A DNA stretch of 59,615 nucleotides, taken from contig CAKZTD010000448.1 in the NCBI GenBank assembly GCA_937921595.1, positions 1 to 59,615 of the forward strand, given 5' to 3'. This document shows positions 2,021-57,675 of the stretch, piece by piece. A program made the translations under genes and the position numbers. The first letter of the stretch is position 1. Each line of letters opens with the position of its first letter. Source of the DNA: an uncultured Saprospiraceae bacterium. Its GTDB lineage: Bacteria > Bacteroidota > Bacteroidia > Chitinophagales > Saprospiraceae. The notes below the pieces were generated by a model. The model saw only the letters and a program-made list of their open reading frames with translations. It had not been told where the DNA came from and did no database searches.

Positions 2021-2593
2021 CTATTCGGCTTCTGCCCTACTCTTTTCGACCACTTCTTTTAGTGGAACATCGTTGATCATGACATTTTCTAAAACGGCAT
2101 TTCCATCTTTTATTTTTACTAGTGCGTATGCGACTTGGCTGGTATCGCGTCGTGATTCTCGATAAATGGTTTCCGCTTCCAGCGCTTTGGATTCTTCCAT
2201 GTAGAAACGATCGAACGGATAGTCAACATATATTCTACTTTCACTCAGTCGTCTTATTTTAGCAGTCAGGTAATCTGATCCATCATTAGGTATTTCTTTG
2301 CTTACTGATTTTATGATTGCAAAACCTTTTTCATTTTCAGAAACACTAACATAGACTTTTTCATGCCTTTTCCAATCCTCAACATGTGCCACTTCAACAT
2401 CATTATTCATAAATCTAAGTGAAACGTATTTACCTCGAAATGGATCATAAGGATCTACAGGAGCAGTTTTAAATTTAAACGTTTTACCGGATGATATGAC
2501 ATTCTCTTGTTGAAAAATCATACTCGCTGGAACAAACAATTGAAGCAATACCAATATTATAAATGCGGGGAAAATTACTTTTTTATAATCCAT
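2021..2593 (-). CDS. GDYXXLXY-type membrane-anchored protein
   Basis: 190 residues. One N-terminal membrane anchor (about residues 7-27) is followed by the motif region DPYDPFRGKYVSLRF, a variant of the GDYXXLXY signature in which the Asp of GDY is Lys. The rest is a predicted extracytoplasmic beta-rich domain. The start codon overlaps the last 11 bases of the upstream DUF2157 gene, so the two are probably translationally coupled. DUF2157 and GDYXXLXY proteins are known to occur together, and the pair may work as one membrane complex. The biochemical function is unknown. Confidence 0.82.
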   Translation of the reverse strand: MDYKKVIFPAFIILVLLQLFVPASMIFQQENVISSGKTFKFKTAPVDPYDPFRGKYVSLRFMNNDVEVAHVEDWKRHEKVYVSVSENEKGFAIIKSVSKEIPNDGSDYLTAKIRRLSESRIYVDYPFDRFYMEESKALEAETIYRESRRDTSQVAYALVKIKDGNAVLENVMINDVPLKEVVEKSRAEAE

Positions 2594-3875
2594 CAGTTTT
2601 TCTTTTTTTAATCATATAAAAATTGGTAATAAAAAACCCTACTCCCAGTAAAACGAAAAGTATTCCTCGCCAAACAAAAGAAAGATCAGCATCAAAAAAC
2701 CGGCAAGTAATCAATGCGGTGATGATGAGTAGACCATAATTTAAAATTCCAAAATGATTGTCTCGTATTCCTTTTCTTACGGTCATTACTCCGATTCCAA
2801 AAAGTAAAAAATTGATTAGTATTGTTGAAAGTGGTGAGTACATTCCAATTATAAAAATGATAATAAAAATTAGAAACACTGGAGTGATCGGCTCAATACC
2901 TTTTAATCCTTTTTCTTTTAATCCTCGGATAAACAAACCTAAAGCTGTTAAACCCAACACACTTACTGCTATAATCTGAGCAATATTAACAGTAGAAAAA
3001 AACCGATCATTTATTGTTCTCAAATCTTCCCAAAACCAATCAAAACTTAACATGAGTAAAACGATTACTGTTCCTAATGCTCCCAATACCCGATAGCCAT
3101 TTCTAAATAAATTTTGTTTTTTAAAGTATGAAAAATCACCTATCATATACAATACACTGAACAAACTCATATACCCGACAAACATGATTTCTCCATCGCC
3201 TCGTACAGTAATACTCGCTAAAGTCATGATCACCGACAAAGGAATAAACCAATGGTGAACTGTAGTAAAATTACTGCTTGCTTTGTTTTTACAGATCAAG
3301 TAATAATACGGTAAAATGGCCAATAAAAGAAAAACAAAATGTAAATACGAGCCCGCTCTATATCGATCATCATAACCAATAATCACGGTATACCAAACAA
3401 TCCAAACCAAGGAGAACAAGGAAACCATCGAGGATTTCATAATGTAAATCAAGGGAATGCAAAGCAACAACCAAGTCAAAAGAAAAGTACTCATTGAACC
3501 GGGAAGATTATAAATCTGACTGACCAGAGAAATACTCGCTCCTACTGCAAAGAATAAAAGCACAGCACTACTTTCTCGCCAACCTGTACTTTCTGGTTTT
3601 TTCAATAAAGTAAATCCACATAATCCTTGCCCTATCAAAAGCGGAAGAAATGCAAAAAACAGTTTGATCCCTTTGGAAAGATTATCCCAGTTGTGTGCAA
3701 GGATAAGAATGATTCCGAGGCCGACAAGGATCGCTCCAAGTACTCCAAAAACAACGAAGAGGCGATTATTGGAGTCTGGTTTTTTGTTTTCATAAAACTC
3801 ATTGATTGCCTCTGCCGTCTCAGGGGAGATGACTTGAGCATCGAGGAGTTCGTTTAGATTCTTTTGGAGATTCAT
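2583..3875 (-). CDS. DUF2157 polytopic membrane protein
   Basis: 430 residues. A short cytoplasmic N-terminal part (LLDAQVISPETAEAINEFYE) is typical of DUF2157. It is followed by many hydrophobic segments from about residue 38 to the C-terminus, with AHNWD after the first one or two helices as in the family. It overlaps the downstream GDYXXLXY gene by 11 bases and forms a two-gene operon with it. The family has no established activity. The upstream region carries a CACAAAGACACAAAG-type repeat, which reads as tandem CTTTG words in the direction of transcription. Confidence 0.82.
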   Translation of the reverse strand: MNLQKNLNELLDAQVISPETAEAINEFYENKKPDSNNRLFVVFGVLGAILVGLGIILILAHNWDNLSKGIKLFFAFLPLLIGQGLCGFTLLKKPESTGWRESSAVLLFFAVGASISLVSQIYNLPGSMSTFLLTWLLLCIPLIYIMKSSMVSLFSLVWIVWYTVIIGYDDRYRAGSYLHFVFLLLAILPYYYLICKNKASSNFTTVHHWFIPLSVIMTLASITVRGDGEIMFVGYMSLFSVLYMIGDFSYFKKQNLFRNGYRVLGALGTVIVLLMLSFDWFWEDLRTINDRFFSTVNIAQIIAVSVLGLTALGLFIRGLKEKGLKGIEPITPVFLIFIIIFIIGMYSPLSTILINFLLFGIGVMTVRKGIRDNHFGILNYGLLIITALITCRFFDADLSFVWRGILFVLLGVGFFITNFYMIKKRKTDGL

Positions 3876-3893
3876 GATTTGTTATTTTTTCGC

Positions 3894-3916
3894 TACAAAG
3901 ACACAAAGAAAAAAAG
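3894..3916. repeat. CACAAAG-type dispersed repeat upstream of the DUF2157 gene
   Basis: The run TACAAAGACACAAAGAAA lies about 20 bases upstream of the DUF2157 start. Related runs occur at 20875-20893 and 50802-50853. Read on the minus strand it contains TGTCTTTG, close to the Bacteroidota -7 consensus TAnnTTTG. Confidence 0.55.
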
Positions 3917-3951
3917 AGGATACTTTTAAATTTCACTCTAATTGAAACCAA

Positions 3952-5403
3952 CTATTGATCCAATTGCTTCATCTTTTCATCAAGAGCTGCTCTATTCAAA
4001 ACATTTCCTTGTTTGATAACCGTGTTTATCTTTTTTGTATTTTGAATATCGTCTAATGGGTTAGCATCGAGGATCACTAAATCTGCAAACATCCCTTCGG
4101 AAATCAAGCCTAGTTCCTTTTCCATTTTGAAATATCTTGCTGGACTTAGGGTTGCAGATTCAATGGCCTCCAAAGGTGTCAGCCCTGCTTTCACTAAAGC
4201 GATTAATTCATGATGCAAACTATACCCTGGTGTCAAGTAAAAAATCGGGCAATCTGTTCCAGCCATAATTCCGACATTTGCTTTGTTCATTTTACCAACC
4301 GTCTCAAAAAACCAATCTTTATAAATTTTTCGATCTTCTGTTACTTCCATTTCCAAAACAGTTGCAACCCCATCTCTCCATTTCCTCTCGATATCAGGAG
4401 GCAGGTATTTAAAAGTCTCTTGCCAATCTTTCGAAGCGAAAGGTTTATCTACAAAAGAAGTCATCACCATAAAAGTTGGGATTTGCCAAGTTTTATTTTC
4501 TGCGAAAGCAGTAATAACTTCCTTAGTTTTTTCTTCATCAGCATTTAAAACAGCTTCTCTTCTTTGTGATTCATGGATGCTTTTACGAAGCACTGATCCT
4601 TCTCCATCTTTTCCTAAAGCCAACATTTTTTTCCTTTGCTCTAGTAATTCATCCGCATTTTTTGCGGTAGACATTTCGACATTTCGAAGGTGCTCTATAC
4701 TTGAAAACCCAGCATTAGAAGCAGTGATTGCATCCATACTTAATGGAATATGTCCAGTCAATGGAAGGCCTTTTTCTTTGGCTCTTTTTGCAATAGCAAA
4801 AAATTGTTCTGGACTCAACATTTCATATGCCTTTAGTAAATCGACTCCAATGCTATCTAATTTTTCAACCTCCAATAATGCAGCTTCCGGTGTGGCTAAG
4901 CCTACTGAAAGCGGCGGTCTAGCAGGTGAGCTTCCATCATAAACATTTGGCATTCCGTCGAGTAAAGGACCGGCGATCATCACTCGTGGAGTGGTGGTAG
5001 GATTAGCAGTAGATTCGTTTTTCCATTTTTTTAAAAAATCAATTTTACCTCCTGTATCTCTCACACTAGTCACTCCATAGGATAGAAATAAATCGAACAT
5101 CGAAGGGGCCATTTCTTCGATATAAGCAAAGTGAACATGGGCATCCCATAATCCGGGAATTAGAAATTTTCCGGTACCGTCAATGATCTTATTTTCTGGA
5201 GATAATTTAAGATCTTTAGATTTGGCTATTTTTAATATTTTTCCATCTTTTAGGATGATCGTTTGATTTGAGATCAAACCGTTATTTGCATCAATGGTTG
5301 AAATATTGGTAATGCAAGTTGCCTCTTTGAAAAGTTCGCCAGGCTTCGAACAACCAATGAAGACAAATAGAATCAATAAGAAAAGTATTTTGTTCTGCTT
5401 CAT
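3952..5403 (-). CDS. Amidohydrolase-family lipoprotein (imidazolonepropionase-like)
   Basis: 483 residues. The N-terminus is a lipoprotein signal with a lipobox Cys at residue 18 (FIGC). A composite beta domain leads to the metal-binding DAHVHF (His89, His91), and later AGTDCPIF supplies the conserved Asp of the amidohydrolase fold. A C-terminal ADLVILDANPL segment completes the typical layout of secreted imidazolonepropionase/prolidase-like enzymes. It would hydrolyse a cyclic amide or peptide-like bond on the outer face of a membrane; the substrate cannot be read from the sequence. It stands 42 bases downstream of the DUF1569 gene on the same strand and may be co-transcribed with it. Confidence 0.88.
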   Translation of the reverse strand: MKQNKILFLLILFVFIGCSKPGELFKEATCITNISTIDANNGLISNQTIILKDGKILKIAKSKDLKLSPENKIIDGTGKFLIPGLWDAHVHFAYIEEMAPSMFDLFLSYGVTSVRDTGGKIDFLKKWKNESTANPTTTPRVMIAGPLLDGMPNVYDGSSPARPPLSVGLATPEAALLEVEKLDSIGVDLLKAYEMLSPEQFFAIAKRAKEKGLPLTGHIPLSMDAITASNAGFSSIEHLRNVEMSTAKNADELLEQRKKMLALGKDGEGSVLRKSIHESQRREAVLNADEEKTKEVITAFAENKTWQIPTFMVMTSFVDKPFASKDWQETFKYLPPDIERKWRDGVATVLEMEVTEDRKIYKDWFFETVGKMNKANVGIMAGTDCPIFYLTPGYSLHHELIALVKAGLTPLEAIESATLSPARYFKMEKELGLISEGMFADLVILDANPLDDIQNTKKINTVIKQGNVLNRAALDEKMKQLDQ

Positions 5404-5445
5404 GGTTTTAGTTTAGATCATTTATTTACCCCTTGACTACTTGAC

Positions 5446-5898
5446 TTATACGCCAAACTGTGTCAGGTGATGATCAAGATGTTTATAAAATAAAACATTC
5501 CATTCATCTTTTGTTAATGGGCCAAAGGAATGTGATTCCCTATTATGAAAATGATCAGCTCCTAGCTCCTGCGTCTTCGTCAGGTATTCAATTAGGTTGG
5601 CTTTTTCCGTTTCAAAATTTCGTTCGTCAGCAATAATAAACTCAGGTGCTGTTCTACCATTCTTTGGATAAGGCTTTGGTCCGACGACCGCATTTTTTAC
5701 AAAAAGTTTAAGCATAAATTTTTTAAAAGCACCTGGCTTAGGATATTTATTCGTGTAAGCCATTTCGTAGGCTACACAACAATGAGCGAGCATTTGTGCA
5801 ACATTCATTTTTCCCCATTGAGCTTGAGTCTTTGGAGTGAGGTTTTTGATACGAGTGATCGTTTCAGCTACGTCGTTGGTATTAAATATGCTTTTCAT
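5446..5898 (-). CDS. DUF1569 (DinB-like four-helix) protein
   Basis: 150 residues, cytoplasmic, no signal peptide. MLAHC (about residue 39) and HLDHHLTQFG near the C-terminus supply the three His positions expected for the metal site of the DinB/YfiT-like fold. RTAPEFIIADERNFETEK is typical of DUF1569. The family resembles thiol-dependent transferases, but its substrate is not known. The gene precedes the amidohydrolase gene on the same strand. Confidence 0.85.
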   Translation of the reverse strand: MKSIFNTNDVAETITRIKNLTPKTQAQWGKMNVAQMLAHCCVAYEMAYTNKYPKPGAFKKFMLKLFVKNAVVGPKPYPKNGRTAPEFIIADERNFETEKANLIEYLTKTQELGADHFHNRESHSFGPLTKDEWNVLFYKHLDHHLTQFGV

Positions 5899-6154
5899 TA
5901 GTATGTTTGTGTTTGAAAAAAATTAAAATTGACTGATAAATATACGCAAGTCGATTGATAAAAATAAATTTGCTTCTGATAAGGACTCAGTAAATAATAA
6001 ATTCCGATTTGATGCTGACCTTTTGTCACTTGTTGTCGTTATGAAATCCTTGTAATAAAGGACATTACTGCGAATTATCAACCTTCGCATCTGAAAAAAT
6101 CTCTAGCCTAAAATCAACAAACTATTATTTGCTGAATCCTAAGCTATAAAATCG

Positions 6155-6162
6155 TATTTTTG
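6155..6162 (+). promoter_or_regulatory. Candidate -7 box for the cytochrome c peroxidase gene
   Basis: TATTTTTG matches TAnnTTTG and lies only 5 bases before the ATG at 6167. A TTTG occurs 23 bases further upstream. If used, the mRNA would be leaderless or nearly so. Confidence 0.4.
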
Positions 6163-6166
6163 AGGT

Positions 6167-7282
6167 ATGAAAAGAACTTTTGTATTGATAGGAATCATAT
6201 TGCTTGTTTTGGTTTTCTCTTGCCAAAAAGAAGATGAGACGCCAATACCTGAAACACCGAAACTAGTACTTCCAGCAACACCTTATGATTATAGTGAATT
6301 GAACTTCCCTCCGCATTTTGAGACGACGGTCATGAATTTTATTCTAGGCGGCAATTTGAGTAACAATCCAATCACTGACGAGGGTGCGACTTTGGGTCGG
6401 GTACTTTTTTATGATAAAAAACTATCCATCAATAATGAAGTTGCCTGTGCCAGTTGTCATTTTCAAGAAAATGGTTTTAGTGATCCCCTAGCTTTTAGTG
6501 TCGGCTTTGATGGTCGGACAACTAGGCGAAATTCAATGGGCTTAGCAAATGCTTTACACACTCGTAGATTTTTCTGGGACCTAAGAGCGAATAATTTGAG
6601 GCAACAGGTTTTGCAACCAATCGAAGATTCTTTGGAGATGGGAAGTAATTTTGAGGATTTGGTAATTGAATTATCTGAAACGGATTATTATCCGGACTTA
6701 TTTGAAGCAGCTTTTGAAAGCGACACGATTACTAAAGAAAAAATTGGAAATGCTTTGACGCAGTTTATTAATTCAATGACTGCTTTTAGTTCTAAATATG
6801 ATGAAGGTCTTAGTTCTGATTTTGAAAACTTCACCCCTCAAGAATTATTAGGAAAAGAATTATTTTTTGAAAGAGGTTTGAAATGTAATCAATGTCATAC
6901 CAATGCTGTTTTTGCAAATACTTCTCCTTCAAATAATGGTTTGATTCATGATGAAAATGATCTCGGATTTATGGAGGTCACCGGTAATGAAGAAGATAAA
7001 TTCCGCTTTAAAGCACCGACCCTACGGAACATCTCCTTGACTGCGCCTTTTATGCATGACGGTCGCTTTGCAACTTTAGAAGAAGTGATTGAACACTACA
7101 ACAGTGGGCTTCAGGCTTATCCTAATTTGGACGATCGATTGACTACTGATAATTCTGTTGGTGGCCCTCCGAGACAAATGAATTTAACAGAGGAAGAAAA
7201 AGCGGCGCTGGTGGTTTTCTTGGGTACTTTTACGGATGAGATTTTGGTGACTGACCAGAAGTATAGTGATCCTTTTGAATGA
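6167..7282 (+). CDS. Di-heme cytochrome c peroxidase lipoprotein (CCP/MauG family)
   Basis: 371 residues. The signal peptide ends in a lipobox with Cys19 (VFSC). Two CxxCH heme-binding motifs are present, CASCH at residues 94-98 and CNQCH at 240-244, as in bacterial di-heme peroxidases. The conserved PFMHDGRFATLEEVIEHYN stretch near the C-terminus is also characteristic. It should reduce hydrogen peroxide in the periplasm using electrons from small donors; a MauG-like oxidase role cannot be excluded. It is a single gene, ending inside a GAATGAGT-type inverted-repeat element that separates it from the convergent VOC gene. Confidence 0.92.
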   Translation: MKRTFVLIGIILLVLVFSCQKEDETPIPETPKLVLPATPYDYSELNFPPHFETTVMNFILGGNLSNNPITDEGATLGRVLFYDKKLSINNEVACASCHFQENGFSDPLAFSVGFDGRTTRRNSMGLANALHTRRFFWDLRANNLRQQVLQPIEDSLEMGSNFEDLVIELSETDYYPDLFEAAFESDTITKEKIGNALTQFINSMTAFSSKYDEGLSSDFENFTPQELLGKELFFERGLKCNQCHTNAVFANTSPSNNGLIHDENDLGFMEVTGNEEDKFRFKAPTLRNISLTAPFMHDGRFATLEEVIEHYNSGLQAYPNLDDRLTTDNSVGGPPRQMNLTEEEKAALVVFLGTFTDEILVTDQKYSDPFE

Positions 7283-7474
7283 GTTACTTTTTAATGAGTG
7301 AATGGAGGAATGAGTGAATAAGGTGTATTGCCTTTGGCAAACTGCTCATCTTATACCTTTGGTTTTCAACTTTGTCTTTCCAATAATTAAGTAAAGTCAG
7401 TTTGATTTAATATTCTCTAAACTTTTAAGCTAGGCCATTCACTCATCCAGTCATTTTTTTACATCCACTCATTT
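7277..7474. repeat. GAATGAGT-type long inverted repeat (copy A)
   Basis: The left arm (7277-7320) holds GAATGAGT, AATGAGTGAATGG and GGAATGAGTGAAT. The right arm (7434-7474) holds CCATTCACTCATCC and CCACTCATTTT, the reverse complement pattern. The two arms are separated by about 110 bases. The left arm begins at the TGA stop of the peroxidase gene. The element lies between convergent genes and could act as a two-way transcription stop. Confidence 0.65.
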
Positions 7475-7483
7475 TCTTCTTTC

Positions 7484-8173
7484 TTAATCATTAAAAATAA
7501 AAAAACCATACCCACCAGGGTCTCTCAAAATCACATTATCAACACTCCCTTCTTTATTAAACGCGGTGACCTCTTCAGCGATTGGAATATTTAGAGAACG
7601 GATTTTTTCTATGATGACTGGGTTATTTTTTCCATTAAAAAAAGTGAGCGATGGATTGAAAAACAGATGCGGACAACTATTTGGCTTCATGATACTGACG
7701 CCCATTTTATTTTCATTTTCCATGGTAATCCAACCTTGCTCAGCACTACCCATCGTTTTCGAAAACCCAAGGGCTTCCCAAATTTTCAAAGATTTTCCAA
7801 TAGCAATACTTTCGAGACTCACGCCAGCGTAATTCCCCAGTACTGATTTTTCAATACCTGTCAGATCGTAACTAGGAATCGTTTCGCTTTCTATAAGATA
7901 AATCCAGGCTCCACTTGGATCATTTAGCAGATAACCATTTTCTATTTTTACAACAGTCGTGATTGCTTCTAAAGCTTTTGCTTCAGATTTCCACGAGCTA
8001 TTAATGAGCTTCACACCTGCTCTGGCAAAACGATCAGGATTGATCTCAATAATTACATGACCATCAGAAAGAAGAACTGGGTTTTCTTTTGATATTATTT
8101 TAAAATCCAACTTAGTATAAAAATCCAAGCTGTTTTCGATTTTGTTGGTTGGTGTTTGTATGATGGATAGCAT
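7484..8173 (-). CDS. VOC (glyoxalase/bleomycin-resistance fold) protein
   Basis: About 229 residues from the ATG at 8173. I chose this start because MLSIIQTPTNKIENSLDFYT begins directly with the first VOC beta strand, whereas the 16 residues added by the ATG at 8221 look unrelated. Two VOC-like halves can be seen. The first ends at NDPSGAWIYLIE, the second at LRDPGGYGFFIFN. The family uses a metal-dependent beta-alpha-beta-beta-beta fold for isomerase, lyase or dioxygenase reactions. No substrate can be assigned, and the metal ligands are not clear. Confidence 0.8.
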   Translation of the reverse strand: MLSIIQTPTNKIENSLDFYTKLDFKIISKENPVLLSDGHVIIEINPDRFARAGVKLINSSWKSEAKALEAITTVVKIENGYLLNDPSGAWIYLIESETIPSYDLTGIEKSVLGNYAGVSLESIAIGKSLKIWEALGFSKTMGSAEQGWITMENENKMGVSIMKPNSCPHLFFNPSLTFFNGKNNPVIIEKIRSLNIPIAEEVTAFNKEGSVDNVILRDPGGYGFFIFND

Positions 8174-8269
8174 GGTATTGGTGTTGCTGGTTAAGAAACT
8201 AACAATGGAACAAGTTAGCAAAATGATAAGATTCTTTTTAACTTATTAAGTACTTAACTATTTTTTATT

Positions 8270-8308
8270 TTTCCTAATACTTTTTTCATTGAAAAAAGTA
8301 TTAGGAAA
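8270..8308. repeat. Perfect 18-bp hairpin with 3-nt loop
   Basis: TTTCCTAATACTTTTTTC (8270-8287) and its exact reverse complement (8291-8308) flank an ATT loop. Neither side is followed by a clear T-run. It lies between two minus-strand genes, about 155 bases downstream of the small winged-helix gene. A GC-richer patch around 8325-8365 in this gap is unexplained. Confidence 0.7.
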
Positions 8309-8461
8309 TTCTAGCTCAAAAAAACGCTCTGCGCACAGCAGTCACCCGCGCCCACCTTTTTGACCATTCCCAACCCACACATACTGCTAATCCTTATGTT
8401 TACTGCATTTTATCATTAGCAAATCAAAATACTAATTTTGAATATGGTTAGAAAACATAAT

Positions 8462-8749
8462 TCACTTTTTCATCCGTAGTTCATGTGGGCTCGTTTTGGG
8501 AATTCTTTCGATGATTCCTCTGGCTTCGAGATCGAGCTTTACGGAAACGATGTACCAGACCACTTTCCCATCAAAGGTTTCAGAAAGATCTCGAATTGCC
8601 ATATCAGATAATTTTTCATAGCTGATTACTTTTCGTTTTTTTATGGTTTTTAAAATATAATCATGGATTACATCATACCTTCTTTTTAAAATATTAACGC
8701 CTTTCTTACCTTGTGGATGAAGGGTGAGATTTTTTTCTTCTTCGGACAT
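8462..8749 (-). CDS. Small winged-helix-like protein (resembles DUF6958)
   Basis: 95 residues from the ATG at 8749 (MSEEEKNLTLHPQGKKGVNI). A longer frame from 8770 would overlap the start codon of the divergent channel gene, so I prefer the internal start. The pattern (LHPQGKKGVNI, then an inferred helix-rich core, then VWYIVSVKLDLEARGIIERIP) recalls the small DUF6958 family and looks like a winged helix with a beta wing. The family match is from memory and unverified. Its start lies 19 bases from that of the potassium channel on the opposite strand, so the two share a very short promoter region. Confidence 0.7.
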   Translation of the reverse strand: MSEEEKNLTLHPQGKKGVNILKRRYDVIHDYILKTIKKRKVISYEKLSDMAIRDLSETFDGKVVWYIVSVKLDLEARGIIERIPKTSPHELRMKK

Positions 8750-8768
8750 TTTTAAATAAAAATATATC

Positions 8769-9707
8769 ATGGCTACTAGAATTCCAAATTTTCAGGATTT
8801 AGGTTTCGGATCAAGGATCACTACATCAGGAGATCGTTTGATTCTTCAGGATGGCTCTTTTAACATTGTTCGAAAAGGGCGAAGAGCTTGGGATGCTTAC
8901 CAATTCTTGATAGGAATGCCTCCTAGTCAACTTGCTTTTGTTACCTTTCTTTTTATTATCGGCATCAATGCAATATTTGCCTGTATGTTTTTAGCCGTCG
9001 GAATTGAACAACTCAATGGAGTACCAAAAGGGTCTTGGATTGACAACTTTCTTTATGCTTTCTTTTTTAGTGTGCAAACGTTTACGACCGTCGGTTATGG
9101 TGGAATCAATCCAGTTGGCATTTCGGCAAATTTTGTTTCTTCGCTTTGTGCCATGATTGGCTTGATCTCTTTCGCGCTCGTGACAGGATTATTTTTTGCT
9201 AGATTTTCAAGACCAAGATCTCATATTAGTTTTAGTAAGAAAGCAATAATTTCCCCCTATAGGGGTATGCAAAGTTTTCAATTTCGGATTGTCAATCCTC
9301 GGAGTCATAAAATCATCAATCTTTCTGCGCGAGTCTCAATGACCTGGTTGGAAAAACAATCAGATGGCTTGTTTAAACGAGAATTTGCCAATCTTCCATT
9401 GGAAAGAGATCAGGTTGTTTTGTTTCCGTTGAACTGGACGATCGTTCATCCAATCGCAGAAGATAGCCCAATGTATGGAAAGACGCTCAAAGAAATGGAA
9501 GCAATGCGAGCCGAAATTCTTGTGATGATTTCTGGCTTTGATGAAAGTTACAATCAACATATCCATACGAATAGTTCTTTTACTTGTAAGGAAATCGAAA
9601 CGGGTGTGAAATTTAAACCGATGTATACTTCTTCGAATCAGGATGCTACGTTTTTGTACTTGGATGATTTAAATAAAGTGATGCCGGCGGTGTCAAAGGA
9701 GGGATAG
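8769..9707 (+). CDS. Inward-rectifier potassium channel, KirBac type
   Basis: 312 residues. A slide-helix region (about 38-50) precedes outer helix TM1 (about 55-77), a pore helix, the selectivity filter TVGYG at residues 107-111, and TM2 (about 122-145). The rest (150-312) is the beta-rich cytoplasmic domain seen in Kir channels, with SFQFRIVNPRSHKIINLSARV at its start. This is the full family layout, so a functional tetrameric K+ channel in the inner membrane is expected. The TAG stop codon is part of a GGGATAG repeat unit. The gene is divergent from a small winged-helix protein. Confidence 0.93.
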   Translation: MATRIPNFQDLGFGSRITTSGDRLILQDGSFNIVRKGRRAWDAYQFLIGMPPSQLAFVTFLFIIGINAIFACMFLAVGIEQLNGVPKGSWIDNFLYAFFFSVQTFTTVGYGGINPVGISANFVSSLCAMIGLISFALVTGLFFARFSRPRSHISFSKKAIISPYRGMQSFQFRIVNPRSHKIINLSARVSMTWLEKQSDGLFKREFANLPLERDQVVLFPLNWTIVHPIAEDSPMYGKTLKEMEAMRAEILVMISGFDESYNQHIHTNSSFTCKEIETGVKFKPMYTSSNQDATFLYLDDLNKVMPAVSKEG

Positions 9708-45606: not shown

Positions 45607-46386
45607 ATGAAACGAATAGCAGTTCTTTTTTATGGCATCATAGCTTATTTTTTATTCTTTGCGACCTTCTTATATCTCATCGGTTTTACTGGTGATTTAT
45701 TTGTACCCAAAAGTGTAGATGGCGAATTAGCGGTTCCGCTTTGGCAAGCCATTTTAACTAATCTTTCTTTGATTGTTTTATTCGGACTCCAACATAGTAT
45801 CATGGCTCGTGCCTGGTTTAAAAAGTGGTGGACTCAGTTTGTTCCAAAAGTAATCGAAAGAAGTACCTACTTGATATTTACGTGTATTGCTTTGGTCTTG
45901 ATATTTGTTTTTTGGCAGCCAATGGGTGGAGAGGTTTGGAAAGTAGAAAATGGATTTCTATCAGGTGTTCTACTCGCATTATTTGCTTTAGGCTGGGCAA
46001 CCGTTTTGGTAAGTTCATTCCTTATTAATCACTTTGATTTATTTGGACTGAGACAAGTGTGGCTTTATTTTAGAAAAAAACCATACACTTCTTTACCATT
46101 TGGAACACCGCTCTTATATAGAATCGTGAGACATCCACTTTATTTGGGATTGCTTTTAGGATTTTGGTGTGCCCCAACAATGACTGTAACCCGATTACTT
46201 TTTGCTGCAGGATTGACCATCTATGTCTTAATGGCTATCCGTTGGGAGGAAAAAGATTTATTGACACACTTTGGAGAAAAGTATCGACGGTATATGAAAA
46301 ATGTCCCGATGATTCTTCCTTCTTTTTTTGGAAGTAAACCTAAAACACCTACTTACGAAACTATTATAAAAAGGAAAGAGGGATAG
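45607..46386 (+). CDS. mddA: Methanethiol S-methyltransferase (MddA-like)
   Basis: 259 residues with five or six membrane helices. The family pattern is clear along the whole length: FFATFLYLIGFTGDLFVPKS, LFGLQHSIMARAWFKKWWT, LINHFDLFGLRQVWLYFR, and the isoprenylcysteine-methyltransferase-like C-terminus LYRIVRHPLYLGLLLGFW with EEKDL after it. MddA methylates methanethiol to dimethyl sulfide with SAM in the inner membrane. A thiol other than methanethiol is possible. The gene ends KEG-stop within AGAGGGATAG, echoing the repeat word at the end of the channel gene. Two phased arrays of ACTCA words lie upstream. Confidence 0.87.
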   Translation: MKRIAVLFYGIIAYFLFFATFLYLIGFTGDLFVPKSVDGELAVPLWQAILTNLSLIVLFGLQHSIMARAWFKKWWTQFVPKVIERSTYLIFTCIALVLIFVFWQPMGGEVWKVENGFLSGVLLALFALGWATVLVSSFLINHFDLFGLRQVWLYFRKKPYTSLPFGTPLLYRIVRHPLYLGLLLGFWCAPTMTVTRLLFAAGLTIYVLMAIRWEEKDLLTHFGEKYRRYMKNVPMILPSFFGSKPKTPTYETIIKRKEG

Positions 46387-52704: not shown

Positions 52705-54051
52705 CTAGGCTCGATTTTCTAGTTTTGACTGATCAGAAACAAGTCCTGCTTTCATCGTATCTATTACAAAATCCAAAGCCTGCCCCCATGCTTTTCCAAC
52801 CTTCGGAGTATAAAAATCTCCTAAAACCTCTGGGATAGTTTCCAACATAGTCTCCTTTACGACGGGGTAATAAGCTTCTTTTACTCCATAGCGTTGATGG
52901 TTTTTTCCGAGTTTTTTTAAGCCCATGACCAAGTGTTCTGGTCTGGATAATGAGTAAACTATTCCTCCTAACATATGCGTTAATAATCTTCCTTGGTCTT
53001 TTATATTATTTTTAAAAAGTGCCCTGACAAATGGTGCTTTTTCAAAAACTTTTTCATAAAAAATACTTGCGAATTTATCTTCATCCTGTAAAAGCAAATG
53101 AAGAGAAGCTTGTAATTCCAGTTGAAGATCCATTTCTTTAAATCCCAACAATTCATAAATTTCTGCACGTTCTTCTTTTCCCGCCAAAAGGGGATTAAAC
53201 TTCCGACCAATATTGAGTGCATCTTTTTTCACACATCTATAAACTGCTTTAGAAATTAGAACATTAGCACCTGTCTTTTTGGTTTGCCCTTGGATACGAC
53301 TAGCTACGTTTACCGGATCTCCGATTACTGAAAACTGACGGTGCGTTGGATGGCCTAAATGACCAACATAAGCCAAGCCAAAATTGATTCCGATCCCGAT
53401 TTCTAATTTTACATTAAAATCTTGTAGCTCAATTTTATTCAACCGCTCCAAAGCATATTGCATCCCTTTTGCTGCACGAATCGCATCCATACAATTCTTC
53501 TCTCGACTCCCTCCGGCCGTTCCAAAAACACCAACAATCTCATCGCCTACATACTGATAGATAATTCCATTATTCATCAAAATAGGATCGCCTAATGCGG
53601 TATAAAATCGGTTCAATAAATAAGCTATATCAAAGGATGCATTTTGAGATGATAATTTTGTAAAATTCCGCATGTCGCAAAACAAAATGGCAATAGGTCG
53701 TTCTTCAGCTCTACCTTCAGGAGCAGTTTCAATTTGCAACTTATTGACTTCTGCGCTTGACCAAATCAAGCGTTGTATTTTGACGTCTCCTTTAATAAAA
53801 CATTGACAGGCTAAACGGATGGATGGATCCCATTTTCGGCTTCTGGTCATTTCGATTTCTGCCTGAGTTTTAGGACTTAAATTTTGTGCTCCTTCTAAAA
53901 CCCGAACTCGACAGGTAGAGCATTTTCCATTGCCACCGCATTCATGTAAATGCGGTATTTGGTTTTCGATAGAAGCATCCAATAAGGAACAGCAATTGGT
54001 ATCGCAGCTTACTTCTTGATTTAGACTTGCATATTGTACTCGAGCTTTCAT
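52705..54051 (-). CDS. Adenylate cyclase with N-terminal [2Fe-2S] ferredoxin and C-terminal globin domain
   Basis: 448 residues in three domains. Residues 1-100 are a plant-type ferredoxin domain with Cys38, Cys44, Cys47 and Cys82. Residues 118-300 are a class III cyclase with metal ligands Asp126 (FCDMRNFT) and Asp170 (YVGDEIVG), the adenine-selecting pair Lys215 and Asp245 (IGDPVN), and Asn248 and Arg252 for transition-state binding, so ATP is the predicted substrate. Residues 312-435 are a globin with B10 Tyr332, E7 Gln353 and proximal His385. It may make cAMP in response to oxygen, NO or redox state. No transmembrane helix is seen. It is a single gene. Confidence 0.9.
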   Translation of the reverse strand: MKARVQYASLNQEVSCDTNCCSLLDASIENQIPHLHECGGNGKCSTCRVRVLEGAQNLSPKTQAEIEMTRSRKWDPSIRLACQCFIKGDVKIQRLIWSSAEVNKLQIETAPEGRAEERPIAILFCDMRNFTKLSSQNASFDIAYLLNRFYTALGDPILMNNGIIYQYVGDEIVGVFGTAGGSREKNCMDAIRAAKGMQYALERLNKIELQDFNVKLEIGIGINFGLAYVGHLGHPTHRQFSVIGDPVNVASRIQGQTKKTGANVLISKAVYRCVKKDALNIGRKFNPLLAGKEERAEIYELLGFKEMDLQLELQASLHLLLQDEDKFASIFYEKVFEKAPFVRALFKNNIKDQGRLLTHMLGGIVYSLSRPEHLVMGLKKLGKNHQRYGVKEAYYPVVKETMLETIPEVLGDFYTPKVGKAWGQALDFVIDTMKAGLVSDQSKLENRA

Positions 54052-54195: not shown

Positions 54196-55029
54196 CTATC
54201 CCAATTCAATCAAGTCTTCTTCCCGCTGTGCCCATTCGGTCCACGATCCATCGAAAACAGATTTTTCGTTTTCTAAAACCAGCTCACTTGCTAACATGAT
54301 GACACAAGCGGTGATCCCCGACCCACAAGTAAAAATCATTGGGCGGTCATCGATTTCTTTTTTATCAAAAAGCGCTTTCAGCTCTTCTTTACTTTTGTAT
54401 TTTCCATTTTCTAAAACTTCGGTATATGGCAAACTAGTGGATTGTGGGATGTGGCCACTTGGCAATCCTACTCTTGGCTCCTGAGCTGTTCCATCAAAAC
54501 GGCCAGCAGATCGAGCATCAAGAACCTGGGCCTCTTTTGTTTTCAAATTGCCTTTTACTTCTGCTCTGCTTTTAAATAAATCTGGATGATACTTCGCTTC
54601 GAAATCTCCTTTTTCAAAAACACTATCTGCTATTTCTTCTATTTCAAAACCATTACTATCCCATTCTGGTAATCCGCCGTCAAGGACAGCAATCTCTTTA
54701 TGTCCCATGATTTTAAACAAATACCAAACTCTTGGGCTGGTATAAATTCCAAGGTTATCGTAAGCAACAATCTTACTGTTTTTATTGATCCCTAGTTTTC
54801 TACATTCTTCTTGAAATTGCTCTGGGCTAGGAATCGTATTCGGCAGATCACTTTCTTGATCACTAAAAGTATTTTTGATATCGAATTTACGAGCACCTTT
54901 GATTTGTTTATTCTCTAGGTTTGATTTTTCACCAGAGATATTTTTCTTTTGGCTGGCGTCGAGGATGATGAGATTTGGATCATTGAAATGATCATGAAGC
55001 CATTGGGTAGAAACTAGAGGGTTTGTCAT
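54196..55029 (-). CDS. sseA: Sulfurtransferase, 3-mercaptopyruvate type (two rhodanese domains)
   Basis: 277 residues, the usual length for a two-domain rhodanese. The N-terminal domain has VSTQWLHDHFNDPNLIILDA and YDNLGIYTSPRVWYLFKIMG; the C-terminal one has VLDARSAGRFDG and the active-site loop CGSGITA with Cys235. The CG[ST]G[VI]T loop is typical of 3-mercaptopyruvate sulfurtransferases rather than thiosulfate rhodanese (CRxGxT/R). It should transfer sulfur to cyanide or thiols in the cytoplasm. It is a single gene with a terminator of the neighbouring peptidase upstream. Confidence 0.9.
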   Translation of the reverse strand: MTNPLVSTQWLHDHFNDPNLIILDASQKKNISGEKSNLENKQIKGARKFDIKNTFSDQESDLPNTIPSPEQFQEECRKLGINKNSKIVAYDNLGIYTSPRVWYLFKIMGHKEIAVLDGGLPEWDSNGFEIEEIADSVFEKGDFEAKYHPDLFKSRAEVKGNLKTKEAQVLDARSAGRFDGTAQEPRVGLPSGHIPQSTSLPYTEVLENGKYKSKEELKALFDKKEIDDRPMIFTCGSGITACVIMLASELVLENEKSVFDGSWTEWAQREEDLIELG

Positions 55030-55158: not shown

Positions 55159-56625
55159 TTACTTCTCCTGACTTTTCAGCCACTTCACTGCCGCTTCTAG
55201 CGTTTCATCTTTTTCTGTTTCTTTATCATCTGCAATTTCTACATCTGGTGGGATTCCATGTAGATATGCATTCTTATCACGATCGGTATACACTGAGGAA
55301 GCAAGAAATATCATCGAGCCATCAGATAAACCGAAGTTTTGATTTCCAGTAGAATAGCCTCCGGTATGTTGGCCAAAACTACGTGCCCCTGGTCTGTTTT
55401 TAAATGCTCCGGTCACTACTTCACCTGAGCTTGCAGTTTGCGGACCTGTCAATACTGCTACTTTAGGATTTTTTATAAAAGGGATATATTCTTTGGTGAT
55501 TTCAGTGACCCTTCCTCCTGAAGATACACTTGCTCCTTTCTCATAGGCCCAGCTAGCAAATTCATTTCCGTATTGAAAATAACCGCAAGTTCCTTCGCCT
55601 AAGATTGGACCAATCCCTGCAAGCATTGGCCAACAATTTCCTCCTTGGTTGTCTCGTAGATCAAGCACCCAGCCTTTGATGTTTTTATTGTCTAAAGAGT
55701 CGATTAAATATTGCATTTGATCCGCAAATCGAACACCTGCTCCATTGTCTCCACTGGAGAAAAATGGCATCCAGATGTAAGCATAATTTTCATCAATATG
55801 ATGTCCTTTACTAAATGTAGTCATTGATTTTTTATCCGAAGGAGTTGGGCTTTGCCAATCTTCCACTTTTTTGAGCGGCATATAAAAACTATGATTATCG
55901 ATCAATCGGAGAATGTTTCCCATTTCATTTTGTACATTTTCGATGCTTTCTGCACAGGACGATAATCGTTTCCAATGTTTCATTAATTGATCTCTATCAA
56001 TGTCATCTTTGTACAAAGAGTGAGTCATAATCGTATCCATACATTCCTCCATAAAAGCCAAGTAGCTCGGGTCCATTTCACATTCCTCAATTTCAACAGG
56101 TTCGATTTTAAAATCATCTATTAGTAAGTTTCCGCTTCCAGAAAGTGTCGCTCCAATCCGCAAAGTTTTTGCTTTCGGACTTACCCAAATATCGACACTT
56201 ACTTTCTTCCAATCACTGGTTCCTTCCACCGCACCTTCCATAAGGTTTGCATATTGCAACCATTGTTCTCCATTTTTGGTATAGCAATAAATTTGCCCTT
56301 TTCCATCTTTAATGTCTTCCCCTTTGAGTTTGGCAGAAACTCTTAATTTTACAAAATCATTGACGCCAATCGGATGCTGTTGAAAAACGTAACCTGGTTT
56401 TTGTTCTGAATAAGGCCCTGATATTTTCACAAAAGATTGATCATTACAATTTTTAAGTTTTGCGTTCTTTTCGATTTTTACAAAGTCTTTTGACTGCCAA
56501 TGTGACTTCCCCGTCAGGCTATCAATTGCTTTTTGACTAAAGTCTAAATTTTGAAAAGATTCCCATTGTGCATGAGTTAGGTTAGTAATGAATACCATTA
56601 GGAAGAGAAGGATTGTATTTTTCAT
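55159..56625 (-). CDS. Secreted S41 peptidase with N-terminal beta-sandwich module
   Basis: 488 residues from the ATG at 56625 (MKNTILLFLMVFITNLTHAQ is the signal peptide); nine extra residues upstream are unlikely. A jelly-roll-like module (about 20-185, ending LRIGATLSGSGNLLIDDFKI) is followed by a helical linker and the S41 core: VLDLRDNQGGN, TGPQTASSGEVV with the likely nucleophile Ser, and FGQHTGGYSTGNQ. No PDZ domain is seen. The upstream S41 gene is a shorter paralog 42 bases away, so the two form a tandem operon. Confidence 0.87.
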   Translation of the reverse strand: MKNTILLFLMVFITNLTHAQWESFQNLDFSQKAIDSLTGKSHWQSKDFVKIEKNAKLKNCNDQSFVKISGPYSEQKPGYVFQQHPIGVNDFVKLRVSAKLKGEDIKDGKGQIYCYTKNGEQWLQYANLMEGAVEGTSDWKKVSVDIWVSPKAKTLRIGATLSGSGNLLIDDFKIEPVEIEECEMDPSYLAFMEECMDTIMTHSLYKDDIDRDQLMKHWKRLSSCAESIENVQNEMGNILRLIDNHSFYMPLKKVEDWQSPTPSDKKSMTTFSKGHHIDENYAYIWMPFFSSGDNGAGVRFADQMQYLIDSLDNKNIKGWVLDLRDNQGGNCWPMLAGIGPILGEGTCGYFQYGNEFASWAYEKGASVSSGGRVTEITKEYIPFIKNPKVAVLTGPQTASSGEVVTGAFKNRPGARSFGQHTGGYSTGNQNFGLSDGSMIFLASSVYTDRDKNAYLHGIPPDVEIADDKETEKDETLEAAVKWLKSQEK

Positions 56626-56667
56626 AATTTTATTTTTTGAGATAAAAAACATTCATATTATCCGGCT

Positions 56668-57675
56668 TTATTCATTTAGCCATCTGCTTGCTTCATTGAT
56701 TTGTTGATCATTTTTTAAATAAGTATTATGTTGAAATTCGATATACTCATCAACTCCAACCTTATGATCATATCTGTTTTTATTTCTATCCATAAATACA
56801 TTTTGTGAAATCACCAAAGCTAATTCATCACTTACTTTATCAAAGCCATTTCCTGTAGTATATCCTGCGGTTTCTTCTCCGATAAATTTTACATTATCAC
56901 GTCCTTTAAAAGTAATCGCCAACATCTCCCCTGAGCTTATCGTATATCTACTTAATAGGATTGCTACTTTTTCTGTTGATGATATTTTAGGTAAGTTTTC
57001 CATTTCGCAAACTATTCTTCCATTGTTATCAAACTGTCCTTTTTTAATCCAGTATTCTCTTGATATCTCACTTTGGCTATTAATTGCTCCACCAATATAT
57101 CCTTCCCCAATTAATGGTGCTAGCCCAGCTATCATTGGCTCCATATTGCCTCCTCCATTAAACCTTAAATCTAAAATCCATTTCTCAACACCTTGTTTTT
57201 TCAGGTCTATTAATCCTGCTCTTATAAGGTCAGCTTGTTCCTTTACATCTCCAGTTCCAATCGCGACAACTTTTAAATAGCCAATTTTATTTTCCAATAA
57301 TTTATAAGAGAACTTGGTCGATACATCATTTATTACCGTATTTACAAAATCGGAATTTCTATTATCTTCCTCCTTGATTTCACCTCTATAGCTTACTAGA
57401 ATCGAATAGTCTTTTACCGAACGAAAAGCCCCATGCTTATCGCCCAAACTATTTATTAAATATTGTAATCCTTCTTTCAAGTCTTCAACGCTCTCTTTTC
57501 CTTTTGTAAGTTCAATAAATTTTGCATTGACTTCTTCCCAGTTTACTTGTTCAGAATAAAGAGATGTTTCTTTTGCTTTTAAAACGATTGGATCAAAGAC
57601 AATTTTACTTTTCTGAGAACTCGCACATGAAGTAATCAAGAGGGAAAAAATTAAAACTGGCAAGATGCTTTTCAT
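56668..57675 (-). CDS. S41 peptidase lipoprotein
   Basis: 335 residues with a lipoprotein signal (LLITSCASS, Cys17). It lacks the beta-sandwich module of its neighbour. Its S41 core aligns with the neighbour's: LGDKHGAF near the front, ILDLRFNGGGN, YTISSGEM with the nucleophile Ser position, and IGEETAGYTTGNGF. This is the first gene of a two-gene operon and looks like a duplicated paralog of the second. The lipid anchor would fix it to a membrane, while the neighbour is free. The substrate is unknown. Confidence 0.87.
   Translation of the reverse strand: MKSILPVLIFSLLITSCASSQKSKIVFDPIVLKAKETSLYSEQVNWEEVNAKFIELTKGKESVEDLKEGLQYLINSLGDKHGAFRSVKDYSILVSYRGEIKEEDNRNSDFVNTVINDVSTKFSYKLLENKIGYLKVVAIGTGDVKEQADLIRAGLIDLKKQGVEKWILDLRFNGGGNMEPMIAGLAPLIGEGYIGGAINSQSEISREYWIKKGQFDNNGRIVCEMENLPKISSTEKVAILLSRYTISSGEMLAITFKGRDNVKFIGEETAGYTTGNGFDKVSDELALVISQNVFMDRNKNRYDHKVGVDEYIEFQHNTYLKNDQQINEASRWLNE

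Follow-up and report, generated by a model that had tools for sequence, protein, structure and literature searches.

A soluble heme-containing cyclase that makes cyclic adenosine monophosphate (cAMP) in an O2-dependent manner is known from Leishmania major as HemAC-Lm (PMC4534343). In a paper of 2006, the chimeric globins comprise flavohemoglobins and globin-coupled sensors, the latter carrying their globin at the N-terminus, and globins are mostly absent in Bacteroidetes/Chlorobi (PMC1457004). Class III cyclases preceded by a Fer2-type ferredoxin domain occur in Rhizobium and Bacteroidota, and a PycC cyclase accompanies a PycTM or PycTIR effector in Pycsar. Here, we describe a gene that joins a ferredoxin domain, a class III cyclase, and a globin in one protein. 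It lies on the minus strand of a 59,615-nucleotide stretch of DNA, hereafter the window, from an uncultured Saprospiraceae bacterium (assembly GCA_937921595.1, contig CAKZTD010000448.1). This triple fusion is a conserved family in Bacteroidota, sparse but widespread.

Architecture of the fusion protein

The gene is an uninterrupted open reading frame, in which we distinguish the following parts:

52705..54051, minus strand: Fer2-cyclase-globin gene, 448 residues, stop codon included; a single gene in the relatives too
53791..54021, minus strand: Fer2 [2Fe-2S] domain, residues 11-87, with Cys38, Cys44, Cys47, and Cys82 (PF00111, E 1.6e-10)
53176..53700, minus strand: class III nucleotide cyclase domain, residues 118-292, with Asp126/Asp170, Asn248/Arg252, and the base positions Gln166/Ser241
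53554..53556, minus strand: Gln166 codon; canonical adenylate cyclases have their adenine-binding Lys here
52753..53061, minus strand: globin domain, residues 331-433, with Tyr332 (B10), Phe346 (CD1), Gln353 (E7), and His385 (F8) (PF00042, E 1.2e-12)

The matches to Fer2, Guanylate_cyc (residues 118-292, E 8e-17), and Globin are each above the curated Pfam cut-off, and are far beyond chance. An earlier note, made from the letters of the sequence, had proposed such a protein of 448 residues with the globin residues B10 Tyr, E7 Gln, and F8 His, and had suggested a domain search and a count of the homologues with all three domains. Its architecture is supported: the search recovers the three domains, including the globin in the C-terminal part, and 36 relatives align over the same domains. 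The predicted single-chain structure, a confident model (predicted local distance difference test, pLDDT, 88.6; predicted template modelling score, pTM, 0.87), places helices at residues 309-447, the globin part. The list of structural comparisons (VIA-align) is filled by cyclases and informs residues 104-306 only, so that the ferredoxin and globin folds rest on the profile matches and the predicted model.

Residue counts were taken from an alignment of 37 triple-domain proteins, namely the window protein and 36 relatives. Left out of it were a fragment (L025), a near copy of L028 (L030), a row from the genome that also gave L029 (L090), a copy with an in-frame stop (L011), one that is the same as L027 (L012), and two found later (L162, L163). 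Near-identical rows such as L034/L037 were retained, and thus the 37 proteins are not 37 independent events. Invariant in all of them (37/37 each) are the four cluster cysteines (Cys38, 44, 47, 82; CX5CX2CX34C), the metal Asp126 and Asp170, the transition-state Asn248 and Arg252, and, in the globin, Tyr332, Phe346, Gln353, and His385. Globin positions are named by alignment to known globins and by the standard nomenclature, and the base-selecting and catalytic roles of the cyclase positions are those of the class III cyclase literature.

Each part can be classified by these features: the central one as a class III cyclase (catalytic fold, two metal Asp, transition-state Asn and Arg), the N-terminal one as a Fer2-type ferredoxin (profile match and four ligand Cys), and the C-terminal one as an F-type globin (profile match; His, Phe, Tyr, and Gln at F8, CD1, B10, and E7, respectively). 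The protein terminates in its globin and has no Pfam match to a reductase domain binding flavin adenine dinucleotide (FAD) or nicotinamide adenine dinucleotide (phosphate), which separates it from flavohemoglobins. Cys125, beside the first metal Asp, was considered as a hallmark of the triple fusion, as it is present in 37/37 of these proteins and in 0/5 two-domain Bacteroidota relatives; it was discarded, being also present in both Rhizobium copies read.

A putative dual-cofactor cyclase

The reading that we favour, with moderate confidence, is that of a soluble homodimeric class III cyclase controlled by both an N-terminal [2Fe-2S] cluster and a C-terminal heme globin, with cAMP as its most likely product. 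The ferredoxin domain would report the redox state of the cell or damage to its cluster, and the heme of the flavohemoglobin-like globin would bind O2 and nitric oxide (NO), ligands suggested by Tyr B10 and Gln E7, which we take to be the flavohemoglobin pair. Both signals would reach the dimer interface, the expected place of the active sites, through the pre-cyclase helix (residues 99-107) and the joint between cyclase and globin (residues 304-309), and the resulting cAMP would be read by a receptor of the CRP type or the PycTM type. A plausible logic would be the convergence of O2/NO ligation and cluster oxidation on one dimer interface; alternatively, electron transfer from cluster to heme might reset the heme. 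The genome of the window has 14 cNMP_binding matches, 12 of them over the cut-off, and six matches to the PycTM family, which also matches in 3/14 control genomes. PycTM domains of this genome were seen in open frames of 422-442 residues (L061-L064, on contigs C418, C11, C398, and C331).

Several observations weigh against this proposal. The position of the adenine-binding Lys is occupied by Gln166 in 37/37 proteins, the pairing of the fusion gene with PycTM genes, described below, is confined to one genus group, and the genome of the window has no match at E 0.001 to the PycTM type concerned.

The first of these points contradicts the earlier note, which had seen in the cyclase the residues expected for adenosine triphosphate (ATP). 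The position of the paired Asp/Thr, Ser241 in the window protein, is variable (S 20, A 10, T 5, C 1, G 1; n=37), and the protein shows neither the Lys with Asp/Thr of adenylate cyclases nor, with Q166/S241, the Glu with Cys/Gly of guanylate cyclases. In the aligned references, the same two positions are K/T in CyaB (3r5g) and E/G in 2w01 (titled guanylyl cyclase Cya2), and the pair Q/S matches neither of them. With an invariant Gln in place of the Lys and a variable partner site, the sequence does not spell out ATP specificity, and the nucleotide made by the cyclase appears less certain than first thought. Even so, the missing pair lowers the claim of ATP specificity and not the possibility of ATP use. 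Rv0386 is reportedly an active adenylate cyclase with Gln at this site, and two further cyclases of the window's own genome (L002, L003) share the motif YQYVGDE, so that the fusion protein is not alone in having the Gln. As a product, cAMP is still likely, on the basis of comparison and not of the motif.

Association with PycTM genes

In five loci from Allomuricauda/Muricauda/Flagellimonas (L031-L034, L037), a PycTM gene is found 3' of the fusion gene on the same strand. In L034 and L037 it begins 15 bp past the fusion gene's stop, and in L032 it follows directly, with a mechanically chosen start that overlaps, while L031 and L033 have an intervening FAD-oxidase gene, with PycTM 14 bp and 0 bp past the oxidase stop, respectively. 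One of the five was identified by PF18967 (E 1.2e-15) and four by the PADLOC PycTM model (E 8.4e-28 to 2e-30), and all five align. Overall, a PycTM gene stands near the fusion gene in 6/39 context sources, with some genomes counted twice. In a close relative of another genus (L043, genome G030), the fifth downstream gene, transcribed in the same direction, encodes an HD-PycTM protein (2500-3669, 390 residues), as if a phosphohydrolase had been fused to the effector.

This PycTM type was sought in 29 genomes, a set to which the genome of L036 does not belong. The 10 named carrier genomes scanned have exactly one match each to the model, located in five of them on another contig than the fusion gene. 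PycTM was also considered as a general partner of the fusion and rejected: among 249 genomes of a second family, nine have the fusion, 45 have this PycTM type (E 1e-15), and four have both, vs 1.6 expected. This is a weak excess, and the adjacency is a feature of one lineage.

Of the 47 matches from the scan of these 249 genomes, 29 PycTM loci were examined for a class III cyclase within a flank of ~1.5 kb, which was present on the same strand in 20, on the opposite strand in two, and absent in seven. In L080 from Maribacter, PycTM comes directly after a response-regulator-cyclase gene with the canonical K/T. This regulator-cyclase was sought in 14 carrier genomes, of which G589 and G698 are the same by identical coordinates, leaving 13 distinct ones; the second-family carriers G602, G655, G692, G748, and G790 were left out. 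A match of at least 74% identity was found in 8/13 and none at that level in the five genomes with the fusion gene beside PycTM (best E 1e-15 to 1e-28). Our interpretation is that the cyclase partner was swapped in one lineage, the fusion replacing the response-regulator cyclase, which these five lack and the other eight have. Two facts weaken this reading: the regulator-cyclase is near PycTM in only three of the eight (G588, G590, G669, with other genes between in the last two), and the remaining ones have a weaker PycTM match (E 1e-35 to 1e-43), located elsewhere. Moreover, the swap is one evolutionary event, so that no strong statistics can be drawn from it. If it is true, the fusion would make the nucleotide of the cyclase that it replaced, probably cAMP. 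The wider proposal, in which a non-canonical dual-cofactor cyclase replaced the response-regulator cyclase beside PycTM in one lineage and O2, NO, or redox state came to gate a Pycsar-type membrane effector, possibly via a nucleotide other than cAMP, is tentative and, to our judgement, rather doubtful.

PycTM-type proteins next to a class III cyclase, most with ATP-type residues, were seen in L108-L136 (Flavobacteriaceae), L080, L086, and L087; in the last three, PycTM ends the gene row and a regulator gene precedes the cyclase. This arrangement resembles a relative of Pycsar under two-component control and probably gated by cAMP. The type of the cyclase on the PycTM side varies by genus (K/T, K/D, and one with Gln; L131, L109, L113, L128, L133), as if the effector had been kept while the cyclase was exchanged across genera. 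In addition, a protein of ~205 residues with HD-like motifs, recognized by eye, is encoded beside PycTM genes in L083 (4339-4953), L117, and L132-L136; the L083 copy has no Pfam match at E 0.001.

Alternative products and roles

In a rival reading, the product is not cAMP but another cyclic mononucleotide, namely cyclic guanosine, uridine, or cytidine monophosphate (cGMP, cUMP, cCMP), which with a PycTM-type effector would form a gas/redox-triggered Pycsar-like circuit. This we consider unlikely. The base-selecting pair, Q with S/A/T/C/G, differs both from K with T/D and from E with G/C, which speaks for it together with the PycTM gene 3' of the fusion gene on the same strand in five genomes. 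The PADLOC PycC models do match the cyclase domain (best E 4.3e-17), but no more strongly than the general Pfam cyclase model does, in a comparison made without a control cyclase. For EaPycC and AnPycC, PMC11224242 names a Phe that precedes the first metal Asp by two residues; it corresponds to Phe124 (35/37), even though CyaB has a Phe there too, and it is the only one of their pyrimidine-selecting residues that is matched. By spacing, R142 and Q144 of EaPycC (before D146) and K104 (before D106) and F109 of AnPycC have no counterpart among Q166, V168, and V173 around D170 (PMC11224242; BcPycC was not compared). Furthermore, 20/29 loci of this PycTM type have a nearby cyclase with the canonical Lys, and the window itself holds no PycTM gene (PycTIR was not sought). 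cAMP remains the product that we favour.

Less probable still is that the globin acts mainly as an NO dioxygenase or an O2 buffer fed with electrons by the ferredoxin domain, with the cyclase as a regulated passenger or a reporter of turnover. The NCBIfam match of the globin is indeed to the globin part of the flavohemoprotein model, far below its equivalog cut-off, Tyr B10 and Gln E7 are presumably the flavohemoglobin pair, and the fused iron-sulfur domain could supply the electrons in replacement of the missing flavin reductase domain. However, the catalytic Asp, Asn, and Arg of the cyclase, which would be needless in a passenger, are invariant (37/37).

Distribution and evolution

The genome of the window has a single full-length copy. 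Within its own family, a near-complete match (45-100% identity) was found in 17/199 genomes, including that of the window, and an 18th genome (G126) holds the gene as two pieces located at contig ends; two copies are present in each of G016 and G014. In the second family, 9/249 genomes have the complete fusion and two have Fer2-cyclase only (E 1e-30). An even draw over the phylum gave 3/395 complete (the window's genome, G314, G533) and one Fer2-cyclase only (E 1e-40), and an even draw from the class, queried with the alignment, gave 4/395 complete (the window's genome, G314, G1092, G1110) and again one Fer2-cyclase only (E 1e-60). The named carriers include Maribacter, Eudoraea, Allomuricauda/Muricauda, Flagellimonas, Robiginitalea, Algoriphagus, and an uncultured Lewinella, with 12 loci, all near-complete and at 67-69% identity in a scan that reaches close relatives only. 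One of the 17 family genomes (G094) carries a copy with an in-frame stop in the ferredoxin part (L011), by decay or sequencing error.

This copy and the patchy presence even inside the genus (G123 has no full-length match) could suggest an assembly error or a decayed gene, but an isolated or artefactual fusion was ruled out: the 37 aligned proteins, drawn from many assemblies, show the same arrangement, and their catalytic and cofactor residues are invariant. The probability of this reading is negligible.

In a tree of 42 rows, rooted by midpoint and with some long branches flagged by the program, the 37 triple-domain proteins are split from five two-domain proteins by one branch (100/99), which may be compatible with a single origin of the fusion. 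The flavobacterial family is divided between two clades in this tree. One of these includes Algoriphagus, from another family, and adjoins Lewinella and the window's genus, a pattern that would fit horizontal spread. A plasmid-borne gene was considered as well and rejected: 168 of 72,556 plasmid records match (E 1e-20), none of them over 80% of the query, and the best 10 of the 168 are all from Rhizobium and cover the Fer2-cyclase part only.

Gene neighbourhood

Three neighbouring genes in the window were compared with the other loci:

54196..55029, minus strand: two-domain rhodanese (3-mercaptopyruvate sulfurtransferase-like), directly upstream with a 144-bp gap; 221.8 bits, below the curated cut-off of 250 bits
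50903..51952, minus strand: F10, 349 residues, secreted-looking by eye; no Pfam/NCBIfam match at E 0.001
45607..46386, plus strand: methanethiol S-methyltransferase (MddA); NF045656, 318.8 bits, cut-off 270

An operon with the upstream rhodanese was rejected; its gene is probably outside the unit of the fusion gene, because none of the other 30 context sources has a homologue. Farther upstream of it stand two tandem S41-peptidase-like genes, named by eye (window 55159-57675). F10 is the next gene after the fusion gene in the congeneric L042 and L044, and in the window a gene of 196 residues intervenes. The genome of the window has four F10 copies, and an F10 homologue (28% identity; L066 18-1112, contig C110 of this genome) lies directly upstream of a PycTM gene.

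Among the 31 context sources, a homologue of the methanethiol S-methyltransferase occurs near the fusion gene in eight (NCBIfam-typed in three of them); it adjoins the fusion gene in L046, L047, L051, L053, and L056, and is 5-6 kb off in L042, L044, and the window. Divergently upstream, 13/31 have a sensor-kinase gene belonging to one family; it is the immediate neighbour in 11 of them, and a DUF4395 gene intervenes in L047 and in L046, whose kinase is split between two frames. Typed on one member, the kinase has TPR and HisKA_3 domains, and the gene after it there encodes a LuxR-type response regulator. Just downstream, 8/31 have a berberine-bridge-type FAD oxidase (typed on L028). The order response regulator, kinase, fusion gene, and FAD oxidase is the same in L036 (Algoriphagus, 3185-8825) and L028 (Maribacter), which belong to different families, and this block was likely transferred between families.

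Implications

This conserved family could integrate iron-sulfur and heme signals on one cyclase, be it by AND logic, OR logic, or electron transfer between the cofactors. The invariant Gln in the place of the adenine-reading Lys offers a test case for base choice in class III cyclases. Given the PycTM link, Pycsar-type membrane effectors may have a further use in gas/redox or two-component signalling, which would widen the defence-only picture; if true, gas/redox sensing would be tied to machinery described for phage defence.

Comparison with known systems

That ferredoxin-cyclases and globin-cyclases are each known separately, as the earlier note had stated, agrees with the Fer2-cyclase relatives found and with HemAC-Lm (PMC4534343). 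Fer2-class III cyclases without a globin were found in Rhizobium (L158, L159) and Bacteroidota (L024, L026, L041, L098, L099). Like the fusion protein, they have the Fer2 domain directly before the cyclase, and the identity across the two domains is 32-37%. Both Rhizobium copies read share with it the Cys before the first metal Asp, but differ by some 270-280 extra N-terminal residues with hydrophobic helices, as judged by eye, and by the canonical K/T, whereas the five two-domain Bacteroidota copies have D/E at the Lys position (5/5).

HemAC-Lm is a eukaryotic protein that, we presume, has an N-terminal globin and no ferredoxin domain, whereas the globin of the window protein is C-terminal. 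Globin-coupled sensors likewise have a globin in control of a signalling output, but theirs is N-terminal and belongs to the sensor (S) lineage, whereas that of the window protein is closest to F-type globins. The closest solved globins are 3s1i and 3ubc; 3s1i, which we take to be Hell's Gate globin I, and 3wfw, a globin fused to Roadblock/LC7, are among the best PDB matches (E 3.1e-17 and 1.7e-16). A Tyr and a Gln of 3s1i align with B10 and E7 of the window globin; unlike the window protein, neither 3s1i nor 3wfw is fused to a cyclase. Five relatives resemble Pycsar in having a PycTM gene beside that of a class III-type cyclase, even though the base-selecting residues differ from those of the published pyrimidine cyclases compared and the window is without a PycTM gene.

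No description of the triple fusion was found in the open-access full-text literature, subscription papers lying outside that scope, and to this extent the earlier impression of an unfamiliar arrangement is supported. Since a heme cyclase and ferredoxin-cyclases are already known, what counts as new here is the triple fusion itself, with its unexpected substrate position and a possible Pycsar-type output.
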